Origin: a virus
DNA length: 64,000 nt
IMG/VR virus record: IMGVR_UViG_3300035670_000059
Coordinates: 49,733 to 113,732 of that record
Reading direction: 5' to 3' (one strand)
A program made the position numbers and the translations under genes. This document shows, in pieces, positions 24,944 through 32,655 of this stretch; position 1 is the stretch's first letter, and each line of letters opens with the position of its first letter. Below the pieces are notes generated by a model. The model saw only the letters and a program-made list of their open reading frames with translations, was not told where the DNA came from and did no database searches.

Positions 24944-26668
24944 ATGGCCGAAACCTTACTTTCCCCCGGAGTACTAGCAAGAGAGAACGATCAATCTTTT
25001 ATACAAGGTCAGCCACTTGAAAGAGGAGCAGCTATAATTGGACCCGCAGCAAAAGGACCAGTTGAAATCCCAACACTAGTAGGTTCGTTCAGCGAATATA
25101 CTGCTATTTTTGGTGGTGCTATTGAAAGTGGATCTAACGTATATTCTTACCTTACCTCAATTGCCGCTAACAACTATTTCCAAAATGGTGGTACTTCTTT
25201 ACTAGTAACTAGAGTAGTCTCTGGTTCTTTTACCTCCGCAACTAGCTCATTGATACCAACAGGATCAGGTGGTCCTGATACTGGTGTATCCCCATTTGTA
25301 CTTGAAACAATTTCTGAAGGTATTATTATGAATAATACTGGTACTGAAATTTCAGGTTCATTACCTTCAGGTTCAAGCGATAACGTTAGATGGGAAATCC
25401 CAACTGTTAACACTGCTTCTGGAACATTTAGCTTATTAATCCGAAGAGGAGATGACAATAACGTACAAAAAATAGTATTAGAATCTTACAACAACTTATC
25501 ACTAGATCCATACGCTTCTAATTATATTTCTAAAGTAATAGGTGATGTGAATTTTAACTTAACTAGTGATAGTGGTGATTATTTTATCCAACAAACTGGC
25601 TCTTACAGTAACCTTTCTCGATACGTAAGAGTAAAACAAGTAAACTTCAATACTCCAAAATATTTTGACAACAACGGTAATGCAAAACCTGCTTTCACAG
25701 GATCTTTACCAGCTGTAAGTTCAGGTTCATTTGGTTCTGCTGTTGGATCTAACATCCCAGTAGGCAGAACAGCTAATTTCTATAACAATGTTAATGCAAC
25801 TGATAGCCAAGGATTAATAGGTAGTAACTACAATAATGCAATTGCATTGTTATCAAATGTAGATGAATACAAATACAATGTAATATCTATTCCTGGCCTA
25901 TTAGCTTCTGCCCACGCTACTCAAACCACAGCTTTAGTAAATAATACAATTGGAAGAGGTGATTCTATTGCAATTATAGACTTAGTACCATATGCTTCAC
26001 AAGTAAATACAGTAATAAACCAAGCATCTGGATTTGATTCTAGCTATGCTGCTACATACTGGCCTTGGTTACAAACTATTGATCCTAACACAGGTGAGGC
26101 AGTTTGGGTACCAGCTTCAACAATGATCCCGGGTGTATACGCGTTTACAGATGCTTCAAGTGATCCATGGTTTGCTCCTGCAGGTATTACTCGCGGCGCA
26201 TTAGGTCAAGTAATCAGAGCTGAAAGAAAATTAACAGCTGGAAATAGAGACGAAATATACGAAGCAAATGTTAACCCAATTGCTACATTCCCTGGAAGTG
26301 GAGTAACAGTATTTGGTCAGAAAACACTTCAGAAACGTGCTTCTGCACTTGATAGAGTAAACGTAAGAAGATTGTTAATTGCTCTTAAGAGCTTTATCGG
26401 TCAAGTAGCAGAAGGATTGGTATTCGAACAAAATACGGCCGCTACTAGAAACAACTTCTTAAGCCAAGTAAATCCATACTTAGAATCTGTACAACAAAGA
26501 CAAGGTTTGTATGCGTTTAAAGTAGTAATGGATGAAACCAACAACACACCTGATGTAGTAGATAGAAACGAGCTAGTAGGTCAAATATTCTTACAACCAA
26601 CTCGTACTGCTGAATTCATTGTGTTGGATTTCAACGTGTTGCCAACTGGTGCAGTTTTCCCTGCATAA
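24944..26668 (+). CDS. Tail sheath protein, T4 gp18-like
   Basis: 574 residues. This is the contractile sheath subunit. The N-terminal LLSPGVLARENDQS and AAIIGPAAKGPVEIPTLVGSFSEY, and the C-terminal RRLLIALKSFIGQ...FEQNTAATRNNF and QIFLQPTRTAEFIVLDFNV, are the hallmarks of the contractile tail sheath family. The middle region is the variable outer domain. The tail tube gene follows, as in T4. Confidence 0.95.
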   Translation: MAETLLSPGVLARENDQSFIQGQPLERGAAIIGPAAKGPVEIPTLVGSFSEYTAIFGGAIESGSNVYSYLTSIAANNYFQNGGTSLLVTRVVSGSFTSATSSLIPTGSGGPDTGVSPFVLETISEGIIMNNTGTEISGSLPSGSSDNVRWEIPTVNTASGTFSLLIRRGDDNNVQKIVLESYNNLSLDPYASNYISKVIGDVNFNLTSDSGDYFIQQTGSYSNLSRYVRVKQVNFNTPKYFDNNGNAKPAFTGSLPAVSSGSFGSAVGSNIPVGRTANFYNNVNATDSQGLIGSNYNNAIALLSNVDEYKYNVISIPGLLASAHATQTTALVNNTIGRGDSIAIIDLVPYASQVNTVINQASGFDSSYAATYWPWLQTIDPNTGEAVWVPASTMIPGVYAFTDASSDPWFAPAGITRGALGQVIRAERKLTAGNRDEIYEANVNPIATFPGSGVTVFGQKTLQKRASALDRVNVRRLLIALKSFIGQVAEGLVFEQNTAATRNNFLSQVNPYLESVQQRQGLYAFKVVMDETNNTPDVVDRNELVGQIFLQPTRTAEFIVLDFNVLPTGAVFPA

Positions 26669-26712: not shown

Positions 26713-27201
26713 ATGGCAGTATTAGATCCAAACGAAATATTCTTCACAGCTTTTGAACCAAAGCAGGCGAATAGATTTATAATGTATATAGATGGCATCC
26801 CCTCCTATACCGTAAAAGGTATGGGAGCGGTAACATTATCTCAAGGAACAGTAGCTCTTAACCACATTAACGTTCAACGTTTTGTTAAGGGTAAATCTAC
26901 TTGGGGTCCAATTCAATTCACCCTATTTGATCCAATCACTCCTTCTGGAGCACAAGCTGTAATGGAGTGGGTTAGATTACACCACGAATCTGTAACTGGT
27001 AGAGATGGATACTCTGATTTCTACAAGAAAGATCTAACATTCAACGTGTTAGGCCCAGTAGGGGATGTAGTATCTGAGTGGATTATCAAGGGTGCTTTAA
27101 TTACTGAAGCTAACTTTGGTGAATATGGTTGGGATACAGAAAATACAGCTATCAACTTAACAATGACTGTTCAACCAGATTACTGTGTATTGAACTTTTA
27201 A
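26713..27201 (+). CDS. Tail tube protein, T4 gp19-like
   Basis: 162 residues, the same length class as T4 gp19 (163). It forms the hexameric inner tube through which DNA passes. The protein shows the tube fold pattern: NRFIMYIDGIPSYTVK, the long hairpin region HINVQRFVKGKSTWGPIQFTL, and the end NLTMTVQPDYCVLNF. It has its own promoter-like motif and a strong terminator, as expected for a highly expressed virion gene. Confidence 0.93.
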   Translation: MAVLDPNEIFFTAFEPKQANRFIMYIDGIPSYTVKGMGAVTLSQGTVALNHINVQRFVKGKSTWGPIQFTLFDPITPSGAQAVMEWVRLHHESVTGRDGYSDFYKKDLTFNVLGPVGDVVSEWIIKGALITEANFGEYGWDTENTAINLTMTVQPDYCVLNF

Positions 27202-27546: not shown

Positions 27547-29526
27547 ATGCCATTAGTATTAAGAAGTGAAAAAGGCTCGCAACTGACCTTTAACGAAATG
27601 GATGGAAACTTTACCTATTTGGAAGGTTTAGATCAAGATAAATTAACAACTAGCTCCTTTAATGCCACTACTGGTTCATTTGTAACCACTAGTTCATTTA
27701 ATGCTACTACTGGCTCATTCACAACAACCAGCTCATTTAACACTTTTTCCTCTAGCTATACTACTGGATCTTTTACTGGTTCTTTTATAGGAGACGGTAG
27801 TGGATTAACTGGTATACCAGGAGTAACTCCAATAGCTACTGGTTCATTTGCTACAACTGGTTCAAATATATTTGTTGGTAATCAAACAATAACAGGTTCA
27901 TTAATACTTTCTTCTTCTGTTGCTATAGAATTAACAGTAATAGGCAATTCTGTATTATCAGGTTCATTAACTATAAGCGGTTCAACTATTCAAAGTGGAA
28001 GCATAGATGTTAGTGGAAGTATTAATGCGGATGGATTTGAATTAGATGCAACTTCTACTTCAACTGTTCTCGCACTTAATAGTGAATTTAACCTAGATTT
28101 ATCTGGTTCCCAAACTCCAATAATTTACAAAACATTAGTATTAAATGATGGAAAGGTATTAGTTGCGGGAAGATTTGAGAGTATTAATGGACATACTACT
28201 AATGATATAGCAAGATTAAATTCAAATGGTTCAATAGATACTTCATTTACAGCAACAAATGTTGGTGGTGGATTTAGTGCAACATCACAATATATAAATA
28301 CCCTTGTAACCCAATCAGATGATAAAATAATTATAGTAGGAAGCTTTAGTTCAGTAGAGAGCAATTCAAGAACAGGAGTTGCTAGACTAAATACTAATGG
28401 TACAATAGATACTGGATTCTCAAACCCAGGATTTACTACTTTTTCCGAAGTTAGAGATGTTGCAATACAAAATGACGATAAAATAGTTGTTGTAGGTAGG
28501 TTTGATGGTGGTATAAAGAGATTAAACACTGATGGTACTATAGATGCTTCATTAAATGTACCGGATTCAACTGGATTTACTGATAACGCATTTTATTCAG
28601 TAGCACTACTACCTAGTGGTTCTGAAGAAGCTATATTGGTTGGTGGAGATTTTAATCAATGGAATACATCTGCGAATTATGATAAATTAGTTAAACTTAG
28701 TATAAGTGGATCGTTAGATACTGAATTTGCTGGGATTAATTTAGACCTATCAGGAAGTCTGGATGTTATTAAAAGAATAAAAATAGGTAGTGATAGTAAT
28801 ATCTATATTGCTGGTAAATTTAGAGATACTGGAGCAGATAGAAGTGCGGGGTTTGCAAGAGTACTTCTTACTGATGATTATGGAGATGGTATTGGTGCGC
28901 TTGATAGATTTTTTAGAACATATATAACAGGTTCATTTGTAAATGATTTTGATTTCTATGGCGAGGATAAAATATTATTAGGTGGTAGTTTTACTACTAT
29001 TGGAAATCCATCATTAAGTGTTACATCCGCTAATAGATTTGCAATAGTAAATCAAAGTAATGGTAATATTATAAGTGGATGGTTTGATTCGGGTAGTGCT
29101 TCTACCTATAATTTAAATGATGGTAGTGTTAACGCCGTTACACTTCTACCGAACGATAATGTATTGGTTGGGGGTACATTTACTAGTGCAAGTTTCCCTC
29201 TTACTGCAAGAGAAGGTTTAGCAAGTTTAAAATTAACCGGATATGGTGATGTAACAACCACATCTGATTATTCAATTACTGCAGATACGAATCAACTATT
29301 AATTAGTTCATCCAATACATACTTTAGTGGAAATGTTAATATTTCTGGAAGTATAACTGGAAGTTCACTTTTAGTAACCGGAAGCGCAAACATTAATGGC
29401 TTTACAGTATTGCCACAAGTATCTGCTTCTCTAAACTTTGCAGATGATACAGCAGCAGCATCTGGCGGAGTACCATTAGGTGGTTTATATAGAAGTGGAA
29501 GCTTTATACAAATTAGATTAGTGTAA
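27547..29526 (+). CDS. Fibre/spike protein with delta-60-type beta-propeller repeats
   Basis: 659 residues. The N-terminus LRSEKGSQLTFNEMDGNFTYLE is a typical fibre attachment start. TTSSFNATTGSF repeats follow. From about residue 195 to 560 there are about seven repeats of the form DGKVLVAGRF...ARLNSNGSIDTSF, the signature of delta-60 repeats that may form a beta-propeller. The end returns to fibre-like SGSITGSSLLVTGS. No S74 domain. It is apart from the main fibre island, between tail tube and baseplate genes, and may be a receptor-binding spike. Confidence 0.75.
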   Translation: MPLVLRSEKGSQLTFNEMDGNFTYLEGLDQDKLTTSSFNATTGSFVTTSSFNATTGSFTTTSSFNTFSSSYTTGSFTGSFIGDGSGLTGIPGVTPIATGSFATTGSNIFVGNQTITGSLILSSSVAIELTVIGNSVLSGSLTISGSTIQSGSIDVSGSINADGFELDATSTSTVLALNSEFNLDLSGSQTPIIYKTLVLNDGKVLVAGRFESINGHTTNDIARLNSNGSIDTSFTATNVGGGFSATSQYINTLVTQSDDKIIIVGSFSSVESNSRTGVARLNTNGTIDTGFSNPGFTTFSEVRDVAIQNDDKIVVVGRFDGGIKRLNTDGTIDASLNVPDSTGFTDNAFYSVALLPSGSEEAILVGGDFNQWNTSANYDKLVKLSISGSLDTEFAGINLDLSGSLDVIKRIKIGSDSNIYIAGKFRDTGADRSAGFARVLLTDDYGDGIGALDRFFRTYITGSFVNDFDFYGEDKILLGGSFTTIGNPSLSVTSANRFAIVNQSNGNIISGWFDSGSASTYNLNDGSVNAVTLLPNDNVLVGGTFTSASFPLTAREGLASLKLTGYGDVTTTSDYSITADTNQLLISSSNTYFSGNVNISGSITGSSLLVTGSANINGFTVLPQVSASLNFADDTAAASGGVPLGGLYRSGSFIQIRLV

Positions 29527-29630: not shown

Positions 29631-30359
29631 ATGTCTGAATTTAAGTTACCTACCGAAACAATCGAATTACCCTCAAAAGGCTTATTGTATCCTTCCGACA
29701 GTCCACTTGCTAGTGGTATCATAAGCATGAAATATATGACCGCGAGAGAAGAAGATATTTTAACCAACCAATCCTACATTCAAAACGGAACTGTAATAGA
29801 TAAACTATTACAATCACTAATTGTATCTAAAATCAATTACAGTGATTTATTAATTGGTGATAAAAATGCACTATTAATTGCTTCCCGTATCTTAGGATAT
29901 GGTAAAGACTATACTTTTATGTATGGTGGCAGAGAAGAAACAGTTGATTTAACTCAACTTTCCAATAAAAAATTAGACGAGTCTTTATACACTAAAGGTG
30001 TAAATAAATTTAATTTTGAACTACCCTACACTGGTACTCATATTACATTTAAACTTCTAACTCACGGTGATGAAATAAAGATTCAAAATGAAATTAAAGG
30101 TCTACAAAAAATCACCCCAAACACTTCTCCCGAAGCTACAACTAGATTAAAACATATGATTTTAGCTATAGATGGAGATGAAGAACAGAAAAATATCCGA
30201 AATTTTGTAGATAATTATCTTTTAGCTCGGGATGCCCGAGCATTTAGAGAATATGTTTCGCAAATCCAACCTGATGTAGATTTGACTTTTTTTCCCGGAA
30301 GTGGGGGAGAATCAATTAACATTCCAATTGGACTTAACTTTTTTTGGCCTGACCTCTAA
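29631..30359 (+). CDS. T4 gp26-type baseplate/tail assembly protein
   Basis: 242 residues of the T4 baseplate (gp26) family: IELPSKGLLYPSDSPLASG, KYMTAREEDILTNQSYIQNG and a C-terminal FFWPDL are characteristic. The gene lies just before the tape measure gene and overlaps a second ORF by 59 bases. That is the arrangement of tail assembly chaperone pairs in other long-tailed phages. The overlap contains seven T (30339-30345) at the codons TTT TTT TGG. A +1 slip there would fuse the first 238 residues to the last 91 codons of the overlapping ORF. Confidence 0.85.
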   Translation: MSEFKLPTETIELPSKGLLYPSDSPLASGIISMKYMTAREEDILTNQSYIQNGTVIDKLLQSLIVSKINYSDLLIGDKNALLIASRILGYGKDYTFMYGGREETVDLTQLSNKKLDESLYTKGVNKFNFELPYTGTHITFKLLTHGDEIKIQNEIKGLQKITPNTSPEATTRLKHMILAIDGDEEQKNIRNFVDNYLLARDARAFREYVSQIQPDVDLTFFPGSGGESINIPIGLNFFWPDL

Positions 30360-30621
30360 AATAGCCCAAGAATTTAGAAAATCTGTCTTTGATCAAATTC
30401 ACCAAATTGTTTTTCATGGCAAAGGTGGATATGATTGGGGAACTGTTTATAACATGCCAATTTGGCTTCGTAAATATACTTTTAAGCTTATAAAAGACCA
30501 TTACGATGAAGAAGCAAAACAAATTGAATCTTCTAAAACCAAATCCAATCAACAAACAGTTATAGACTCCTCTGGAAAGATCACTGCTCCCCAATTCTTA
30601 AAACAAACAAGTTATAAATAA
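30301..30621 (+). CDS. Overlapping downstream ORF, possible frameshift partner of the gp26-type protein
   Basis: 106 codons from a GTG that lies inside the gp26-type gene. No ATG or ribosome site supports separate initiation. From residue 16 on the sequence looks like a real domain (IAQEFRKSVFDQIHQIVF, GGYDWGTVYNMPIWLRKYTF, then a polar tail), similar to small proteins seen behind gp26-type genes in other phages (from memory). It may be made as a +1 (or -2) frameshift extension at 30339-30345, or from the GTG. Confidence 0.7.
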   Translation: MGENQLTFQLDLTFFGLTSKIAQEFRKSVFDQIHQIVFHGKGGYDWGTVYNMPIWLRKYTFKLIKDHYDEEAKQIESSKTKSNQQTVIDSSGKITAPQFLKQTSYK

Positions 30622-30657: not shown

Positions 30658-32655
30658 ATGGCTTTAGGAGACGGCAAAGCAAAACAAGAATCTCAAGAAA
30701 TAAAAGGAGAATTATCTGCTATTTTAGATGCTGTATCATCTATTGGGGATAAATTAGTATCTTCTTTTCAAGATGCTGTTGATGAAGCTAGTAAATTTCG
30801 TAATGTATCAGAAGCTACCTCAAAAACCTTAAAACGAGGTTTACTTTCAGATATAAAGGAAACAGTAAAAAATACTGAAGATCTTATTAGAGCTCAAGTA
30901 AAGGCAGAAAAAGGATTATTAAGGCAATCTGAAATTCAAAAACTGCAAAATAAACTAGCTGAAAATAGAGCATTATTTGAGGCTAGGCAAGCTATAGCTT
31001 TAGCAAATAAAGTTCCATTAACTAAAGCTCAAACTAAAAAATTTGAAGAGCAACTTGTATTACAAGAAGCATCCCTTAAAGCCACAATAAAAGCTAATAA
31101 AGAAAATGAAAAAGCTTTTGGTTTAATAGGTTTAGCTAAATCCGCAGCTAGTGGGTTAGCCGATAAAATTGATAAAAGTGGAAAATTATCTAAAGTATTT
31201 AGTGGAGAACTAAATAAAGCTCAAAAACTTACTTTGCTTGCAGATAGTGCTTTTGCATTATTGGTAAATGGTGTACTTCAAGCTAGTGATAATATAGCAG
31301 CAATTGCTAAAAATACTGGAGTATCAGCTAATGAAGCCCAAAGATTACAAGCTAGTTTTGCTACTGCTGCTTCTGAATCTGGAAAATTATTTATAAACAG
31401 TAAGGATTTAAACAAAGCATTTGGTGAACTTTCTAGCCAAACTGGATTAATAGCAGATTTTGGTGGAAAAACTTTAGTTACCCAAGCTACTTTAACTAAA
31501 CAATTAGGATTATCATCTCAATCCGCTGGTAAATTATCATTACTCTCCAGAATTCAAAGTCAAAACACTGAAGGGGTTTTATCCAATACAGTAAAGACTG
31601 TAGGGGCAATTTCAAGACAAAATGGAGTTGCACTTAACGCTAAGAGTATTTTAGAAGAAATTAGTAATACAAGTGCAGCTATAACAGTTTCACTAGGTAA
31701 AAATCCAATAGCTTTAGCTGAAGCTGCTTCTCAAGCTAAATTATTTGGTGCTAATTTATCTACTGTAGATACTATTGCCTCTAGTTTATTGAATTTTGAA
31801 GAATCTATTTCTAATGAATTACAAGCTGAATTATTAACGGGTCAAAATATTAATCTAGAAAGAGCAAGATTATTAGCTTTAAATAACGACCTATCAGGTT
31901 TATCTAAGGAATTAGCTGATAACGAAGAAATTATAACAGCATTCGCTACAGGAAATAGAATACAACAAGAAGCAGCAGCAGCCGCTATTGGATTAAGCCG
32001 AGAGCAATTAGCAGAAATAGCATTACAACAAGAATTTAATAATTTATCAGCAGAACAATTTAGAGATACTTACGGAGAAGTAACATACCAACAATTACAG
32101 TCTCAATCTGCTAGTGAAAAATTTGCCTCAACTTTAGAAGCAATACAAGGAATTATAGGAGATATAGGTATAGCTTTTGCTCCATTTTTAGATGGATTAG
32201 CAACAGCTGTTGGATTTCTCGCTAAAAATAAGGCAGCAGCTATAGGATTAGCGGCTGTATTAACTACATTAGCTAGTATCTCTCTTGCTAATGCCATAGC
32301 TAATATATTTGCTTCTTCTGTATTAACTGGTCCAATTGCTGGTCCAATACTTGCAGCTGCTACAGTTGCAGGAATGATTGCAGCAATTGCATCCTCTAAA
32401 TCATTAACTACAGCAGATGATATGATAGCTCCTTCAGGTTATGGAGACAGAATTTTATCTACACCTAAAGGATCTATAGCATTAAACAATAACGATACAG
32501 TTGTAGCAGGTACAAACTTAGGTGGAGGAGGAAACCAAGAAACTAAACGTACCAACCAACTGCTAGAAAGATTATTAAATCAACCCGCAGTATTTAAAAT
32601 AGGAACAGATGAATTCTATACTGCTACCTCAAAATATAGCTATCAAATTCAATAA
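30658..32655 (+). CDS. Tape measure-like tail protein
   Basis: 665 residues, almost all helical: coiled coil in the first 170 residues, then Ala/Leu-rich helices, and two hydrophobic stretches near residues 505-525 and 535-585 (AAIGLAAVLTTLASISLANA, GPIAGPILAAATVAGMIAAI). This is the usual build of tape measure proteins, which fix tail length and later enter the host membrane. Position behind the gp26-type pair supports it. It would do the job of T4 gp29. Confidence 0.75.
   Translation: MALGDGKAKQESQEIKGELSAILDAVSSIGDKLVSSFQDAVDEASKFRNVSEATSKTLKRGLLSDIKETVKNTEDLIRAQVKAEKGLLRQSEIQKLQNKLAENRALFEARQAIALANKVPLTKAQTKKFEEQLVLQEASLKATIKANKENEKAFGLIGLAKSAASGLADKIDKSGKLSKVFSGELNKAQKLTLLADSAFALLVNGVLQASDNIAAIAKNTGVSANEAQRLQASFATAASESGKLFINSKDLNKAFGELSSQTGLIADFGGKTLVTQATLTKQLGLSSQSAGKLSLLSRIQSQNTEGVLSNTVKTVGAISRQNGVALNAKSILEEISNTSAAITVSLGKNPIALAEAASQAKLFGANLSTVDTIASSLLNFEESISNELQAELLTGQNINLERARLLALNNDLSGLSKELADNEEIITAFATGNRIQQEAAAAAIGLSREQLAEIALQQEFNNLSAEQFRDTYGEVTYQQLQSQSASEKFASTLEAIQGIIGDIGIAFAPFLDGLATAVGFLAKNKAAAIGLAAVLTTLASISLANAIANIFASSVLTGPIAGPILAAATVAGMIAAIASSKSLTTADDMIAPSGYGDRILSTPKGSIALNNNDTVVAGTNLGGGGNQETKRTNQLLERLLNQPAVFKIGTDEFYTATSKYSYQIQ

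Follow-up and report, generated by a model that had tools for sequence, protein, structure and literature searches.

The window analysed here, 64000 bases of a 113732-base virus record, raises the question of how the second of two overlapping open reading frames (ORFs) is translated when the start codon listed for it, a GTG (30301-30303, plus strand), lies inside the first. In the tail region of the window the sheath gene (24944-26668) is followed by a tail tube protein gene (26713-27201, plus strand; match to the tail tube family phrog_4542, E 1.8e-21) and by an ORF of 659 amino acids (27547-29526), which lies between the tail tube gene and a gp26-type ORF (29631-30359, plus strand; 242 aa, zero frame). 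The second ORF, in the +1 frame, runs from the GTG at 30301 to 30621 and overlaps the gp26-type ORF by 59 bases. The two lie directly upstream of a tape measure protein gene (30658-32655, plus strand), which begins 36 bases downstream of the end of the second ORF and whose product shares 43% identity, over 325 residues, with the annotated tail tape measure protein of Flavobacterium phage immuto; immuto has the same gene order. The initial annotation had likened this arrangement to that of tail assembly chaperone genes and had proposed that a frameshift at seven T joins the two ORFs. Its coordinates, the length of the overlap and the 329-residue fusion after a +1 slip were all reproduced on recomputation, and the overlapping pair and the tape measure homologue bear the comparison out.

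Gene order, homology, reading frames and a conserved site, all of which are read from the sequence, together point very strongly to a programmed +1 frameshift that would give the tail assembly chaperone of a T4-related myophage in two forms, short and long. The gp26-type ORF ends with CTT AAC TTT TTT TGG CCT GAC CTC TAA, and the putative slip site is TTT TTT T(GG) at 30339-30345 on the plus strand. We infer the slippage itself, its rate and the protein contacts as follows. One mRNA would encode two chaperone products. For most ribosomes translation would end at 30357-30359, with release of G (242 aa), the short form. The others, fewer in number, would slip forward by one base at UUU UUU UGG while their P site holds peptidyl-tRNA-Phe on UUU; they would re-pair, continue with GGC and thus read the 91-aa extension T (30346-30621, plus strand, +1 frame), the C-terminal part of a 329-aa long form, GT. 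By analogy with gpG and gpGT of phage lambda, G in many copies, and GT in few, would form a coat on the tape measure protein, and T would be the part that brings in tail tube subunits.

The assignment of G to a chaperone family comes from profile searches. G matches phrog_150 (E 2.4e-8 in the profile search, 5.2e-10 in the genome search), the family that both gp26 and gp51 of T4 also match. G had no match in the Pfam scan of the window proteins, PF12322 included, and PF12322 does match the relatives of G in GXN1, LIS04 and RM378. An AlphaFold2 model of G (pLDDT 91) was compared with the PDB, and the three entries listed were 3klu (YqbN, which we take to be a tail chaperone relative; Z 6.3, rmsd 4.1, 87 residues aligned), 2ob9 (the HK97 tail assembly chaperone; Z 5.4, rmsd 4.1, 76 aligned) and 5ir0 (Z 4.3). 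That a phage tail assembly chaperone is among these best matches we regard as supporting rather than conclusive, because the Z scores lie below 8. Matches of the model in BFVD include SP-15 and other 'baseplate hub' proteins. The model of T consists of three helices (pLDDT 73); it had no BFVD match at E <= 0.001, and its best PDB match was to the unrelated Bax (Z 3.8). Sequence searches of the PDB with gp51 and with alignment A1 returned 0 matches each. On the basis of sequence we identify the first ORF as the short form of a tail assembly chaperone, like lambda gpG, and the predicted fusion as the long form, like gpGT.

Relatives were collected at several distances. A tblastn search of annotated phages retrieved 10 phage records with the first ORF and 6 with the extension. 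Three larger sets were compiled: B20, viral contigs found with the window protein (the best 80 of at least 600 candidates) plus the window, immuto and Mel-JY01; B63, viral contigs found with the LR756508 protein; and C65, contigs found with a cyanophage-like protein (the best 80 of 280) plus seven isolates. Since the best-scoring candidates were retained, B20 and C65 lean to near relatives. The 197 loci were reduced to 163 once identical junctions were removed; the counts leave out three partial matches (L122, L123, L143) and further copies of RM378 and SP-15 (L103, L124), and four loci whose contigs end inside the T frame (L121, L133, L138, L202) were scored as consistent.

Among the matches listed, T extends in the +1 frame at the Phe-Phe site in 86 of 88 non-redundant loci, the window included. 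All 71 B20 loci among the matches listed have the +1 extension, 208-310 bases beyond the first stop, with the position of the slip site conserved; such an extension is far above chance, because 71 of 71 non-redundant close loci keep it. Upstream of the site the +1 frame of the B20 loci is interrupted by stops at many positions, and none occurs from the codon that precedes the site to the last of the 31 codons inspected beyond it. The conserved core of T in the B20 alignment is GLT..IHEIVFHGKGGYDW.TVYNMPIWLRKF. In B63 the extension is in +1 in 15 of 17 loci, including L121, which is cut by the contig end; T is also in +1 in L210 and L211, which stand outside all counts.

The T run was expected to be conserved in relatives if the slip is real, and a T-rich slip site is indeed conserved. 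The B20 motifs among the matches listed are TTT TTT TGG CCT (63 loci), TTT CTT TGG CCT (4) and four single variants, and the main B63 motif is TTC TTT TGG CCT (12 loci). A +1 extension follows the end of the first ORF in the immuto phages (Flavobacterium), Mel-JY01 (Microcystis) and the uncultured LR756508, a group with the junctions AGC TTT CTT TGG CCT, AAC TTT TTT TGG CCT and AAC TTT CTA TTC CCT. Among more distant members, a long +1 frame occupies this place in GXN1 (TTC TTT CGT), RM378 (TTT TTT TGG), LIS04 (TTT TTT AGT) and SP-15 (TTT TTT CAC). The spelling TTT by itself is weak evidence, since TTT already makes up 86% of the Phe codons in these genes, and the window contains 8 runs of seven or more T, which are therefore not rare in it. 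A second seven-T run (30287-30293, ACT TTT TTT CCC) lies 52 bases upstream of the slip site, inside G, where the +1 frame is open as well. This run is unlikely to be the main site, because the Phe pair at its position is unconserved, being found in only 45-46 of the 71 B20 loci among the matches listed.

The overlap itself carries coding sequence in each of the two frames. All 71 B20 loci among the matches listed spell the Pro that follows the site as CCT, whereas an invariant Pro 8 codons upstream is spelled in four ways in the same matches (CCA 42, CCC 15, CCT 9, CCG 5).

T could instead be a separate protein, made by translational coupling or by reinitiation at a weak start that lies within the last part of G (TTG at 30328 or GTG at 30301). 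Among the matches listed, 60 of 71 B20 loci have some ATG, GTG or TTG upstream in the +1 frame and 55 of 71 have a TTG at -11, so that for these 55 loci taken singly a weak start may be possible; this TTG, however, is a by-product of conserved Ile-Gly codons (ATT GGx), which create it. In 20 of 86 loci among the matches listed (11 of 71 in B20, 9 of 15 in B63) the stretch from the last +1-frame stop to the site contains neither ATG nor GTG nor TTG, and in 14 of these 86 the nearest upstream +1 stop precedes the site by only 5 or 11 bases (6 of 71 in B20, at 5 or 11 bases; 8 of 15 in B63, at 5 bases). A start codon at the relative position of the window's GTG 30301 occurs in 11 of 71 B20 loci among the matches listed and in 0 of 15 B63 loci, and in the window this GTG is probably not used as a start. 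In C65, where the junction has a -1 relation, a start codon is lacking both at the site and before it in 66 of 66 loci among the matches listed. Second-ORF starts are thus absent or unconserved in relatives, as the initial annotation had anticipated for a frameshifted gene.

That annotation had also named, as evidence against a frameshift, relatives whose second ORF is separate and has its own start. Two such loci exist: in L113 and L119 the T part lies in another frame and begins with its own ATG (MENIDNLL and MNIDRFLQ) immediately after the first stop. In both, however, the slip motif has been lost as well (TTC TTG TAT CCT and TTC CTT TGG CCA), and for this reason we treat them as controls rather than as a refutation. 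Although they show that T can stand behind its own ATG, the motif disappears just where T is truly separate, and we consider separate initiation of T in the window to be unlikely.

The direction of the predicted +1 slip can be weighed against a ribosomal -2 shift, which would end in the same frame, would insert one extra Phe (NFFF-GLT) and would also re-pair perfectly on the seven T of the window. The relatives distinguish the two. In the 12 non-redundant loci that read TTC TTT TGG a -2 shift of the second Phe tRNA lands on TCT, and the same is true of TTC TTT CGT in GXN1; a +1 shift of that tRNA reaches UUU in TTC TTT TGG or UUC in TTC TTT CGT, the UUC of GXN1 being a perfect match. In the variants TTT CTT, TTT ATT and TTT CTA the first Phe codon could slip to UUC or UUA, and at L004 (TTT CTA TTC) the slip would have to occur one codon earlier. 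The pairing argument, which we infer from these sequences, thus favours +1 throughout, with the exact slipping codon varying. The initial annotation had left the direction as "+1 (or -2)"; because the TTC TTT T variants would place a -2 shift on TCT, the first half of that statement stands and the second is very unlikely to hold. Seven T in a row might suggest transcriptional slippage there, or a miscounted homopolymer in the assembly; both explanations are hardly credible, because the frame relation is unchanged where the run is only 3-4 T (six B20 loci) or 4 T (twelve B63 loci) and is kept in the isolate genomes of immuto (TTT CTT TGG) and Mel-JY01, a recurrence in independent genomes with different motifs that would not be expected of an assembly error.

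In the window the A-site codon of the putative +1 site is UGG, not a stop. Elements resembling a Shine-Dalgarno (SD) sequence were absent in 66 of 71 B20 loci among the matches listed, the remaining 5 having a 4-base match, and the downstream RNA showed no clear structure in B20 (mean z -0.25 over 60 bases, n=66, and -0.78 over 100 bases; the scan used at most 66 loci per set and excluded L138). The cyanophage-type sister group differs in its SD-like elements and downstream structure. In C65 the relation is -1, at the canonical site T TTT TTN, in 66 of 66 loci among the matches listed (three of them cut by contig ends), GAGGG, GGAGG, AAGGA or GAGG occurs 9-11 bases upstream in 52 of 65 loci among the matches listed, and strong folding is seen in the 60 bases that follow (mean z -1.93, 54% below -2, among the matches listed).

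The comparison with T4 places these arrangements in one family. In the phrog_150 profile (282 positions) T4 gp51 is covered in one frame from 3 to 281, and coverage of gp26 stops at 236: the end of gp26 coincides with that of G, and gp51 goes on into a T-like C-terminal domain. In Melnitz, S-H25, P-HM1, S-SKS1 and Milchi the same profile is split between a zero-frame piece that reaches about 233-235 and a piece in a shifted frame that spans about 226-281. Profile comparison linked the cyanophage T to the gp51 C-terminus (probability 97, E 9e-11), the B63 T to the cyanophage T (87) and the B20 T to the B63 T (99.7). The direct match of the B20 T to the gp51 C-terminus is weak (23), the two being linked through these intermediates, and column-shuffled controls for the four pairs gave <= 1.1. 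A search with phrog_634 matched none of 9 genomes, namely the window genome and records W01-W08. The T part of RM378 had no profile link to other T parts.

Several deposited records and junctions deserve mention here. Seven loci (L094-L098, L101 and L102; Melnitz, cyanophage, Milchi and KVP40-type) carry entries for a 'baseplate hub assembly catalyst gp51' or for small hypothetical proteins, and these proteins are fragments of the -1 frameshift extension of 'gp26'. Salmonella phage Marshall (L099) and Vibrio phage D506 (L100) have a T-like -1 frame with the motif SMPWHL or SLMPWHL, and their junctions contain no perfect T TTT TTN heptamer. In RB43 (L209) the gp51-type and gp26-type genes stand in tandem on one strand, whereas the T4 pair is divergent.

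Copy number and phylogeny were compared with the mode of joining. Among 23 records examined, the 18 with the frameshift arrangement have one G copy, PG216 (Straboviridae) among them, and two copies were found in the 5 Straboviridae that have gp26 plus gp51. In a tree of 42 proteins, from which the second copy of RB43 was left out and in which RM378 and XacN1 form long branches of unsure placement, the gp26 and gp51 rows form one clade (96/94), and the split-gene rows of L113 and L119 pair inside the +1 clade (100/100). On the starred branches the +1 label has to change at least three times and the -1 label at least twice. We think it likely that in this T4-type family selection preserves the pair of products and not the decoding route, which at one homologous Phe-Phe site would be +1 (the window clade and the SP-15/LIS04 type), -1 (cyanophages and the KVP40 type), a duplication with in-frame fusion (T4) or a split T (L113, L119), the +1 form working on sense codons without a stop, an SD-like element or evident structure.

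How does this compare with known systems? In the parts available to us, a 2016 review describes the G-T shift as conserved in long-tailed phages 'except T4' (PMC5009743). Chaperones of this kind are produced as two forms in a constant ratio, bind the tape measure protein and do not occur in virions. Lambda gpG/gpGT use an X XXY YYZ heptamer to shift -1, a feature that not all chaperones of the kind share, whereas the window has a predicted +1 shift on U-rich sense codons, and -1 shifting is found in the cyanophage-type sister group. Profile searches run on the window proteins gave no sequence match to the lambda-type chaperone families. By this comparison the window system would not be a lambda-type -1 case, yet it would work like one. 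T4 and the window share a homologous G domain (phrog_150); in T4 two paralogues occur and the frame is not shifted, and in the window a single gene carries a +1 site. The cyanophage 'gp26' and short 'gp51' belong to the same family, in which only a frameshift out of the G gene gives access to T; that -1 site has T TTT TTN, an SD-like element and downstream structure.

Predicted +1 shifts exist elsewhere. HSTV-2 is listed as a very likely +1 case in the portion of the review consulted (PMC5009743), and for the haloviruses of the HF1 group the accessible text of another report predicts a +1 shift at TTT-CGC in the tail assembly chaperone gene (PMC7230728). These are likewise predicted +1 shifts in a myovirus tail chaperone gene, in a chaperone of another family; the HF2 chaperones, considered as homologues, were rejected, as they match phrog_14268 and phrog_12163. 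The influenza A +1 site UCC UUU CGU is named in a title cited by the same report (PMC7230728), and the UUU CGU of GXN1 equals the core of that site.

Part of the present picture is prior art. According to the portion of their report available to us, Sullivan et al. (2010) found cyanophage gp51 to be about 20% of its usual length, with the first ~200 residues missing, in marine vibriophages too (PMC3037559); such a short gp51 is what remains visible when T is made by a -1 shift from the G gene. Vladimirov, Gautam and Davidson (2022) identified T4-like tail assembly chaperones, as we gather from citing papers, in which their work is cited for a short gene and a fused long gene in some T4-like phages (PMC10885494) and for -1 signals of the poly-T type in the chaperone genes of T4-like phages (PMC12846349). 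The T4 connection and the poly-T -1 signals are thus already theirs, on the account of those papers, and the initial annotation's statement that it knew of no description for T4-type gp26 is contradicted. We found no description of a +1 shift in the gp26-type family in the literature searched, which was thin on subscription journals; what appears to be new is the +1 form, the change of shift direction between lineages at a single homologous site, and the range of four solutions there.

On these results the apparent users of tail-assembly frameshifting would grow by a large group of phages (environmental, Flavobacterium-type and huge), which would shift in the less common direction, +1. The results also bear on public records, in which T parts are listed as 'hypothetical protein' or as a short 'gp51' and for which a joined CDS is needed; the immuto annotation, for example, is limited to a 36-codon 'hypothetical protein' that starts internally. 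The family comparison puts the two genes of T4 inside the same scheme, as Vladimirov et al. (2022), to judge from the papers that cite them, evidently proposed. The natural series of +1, -1, duplication and split gene lets one ask what purpose a fixed G:GT ratio serves.
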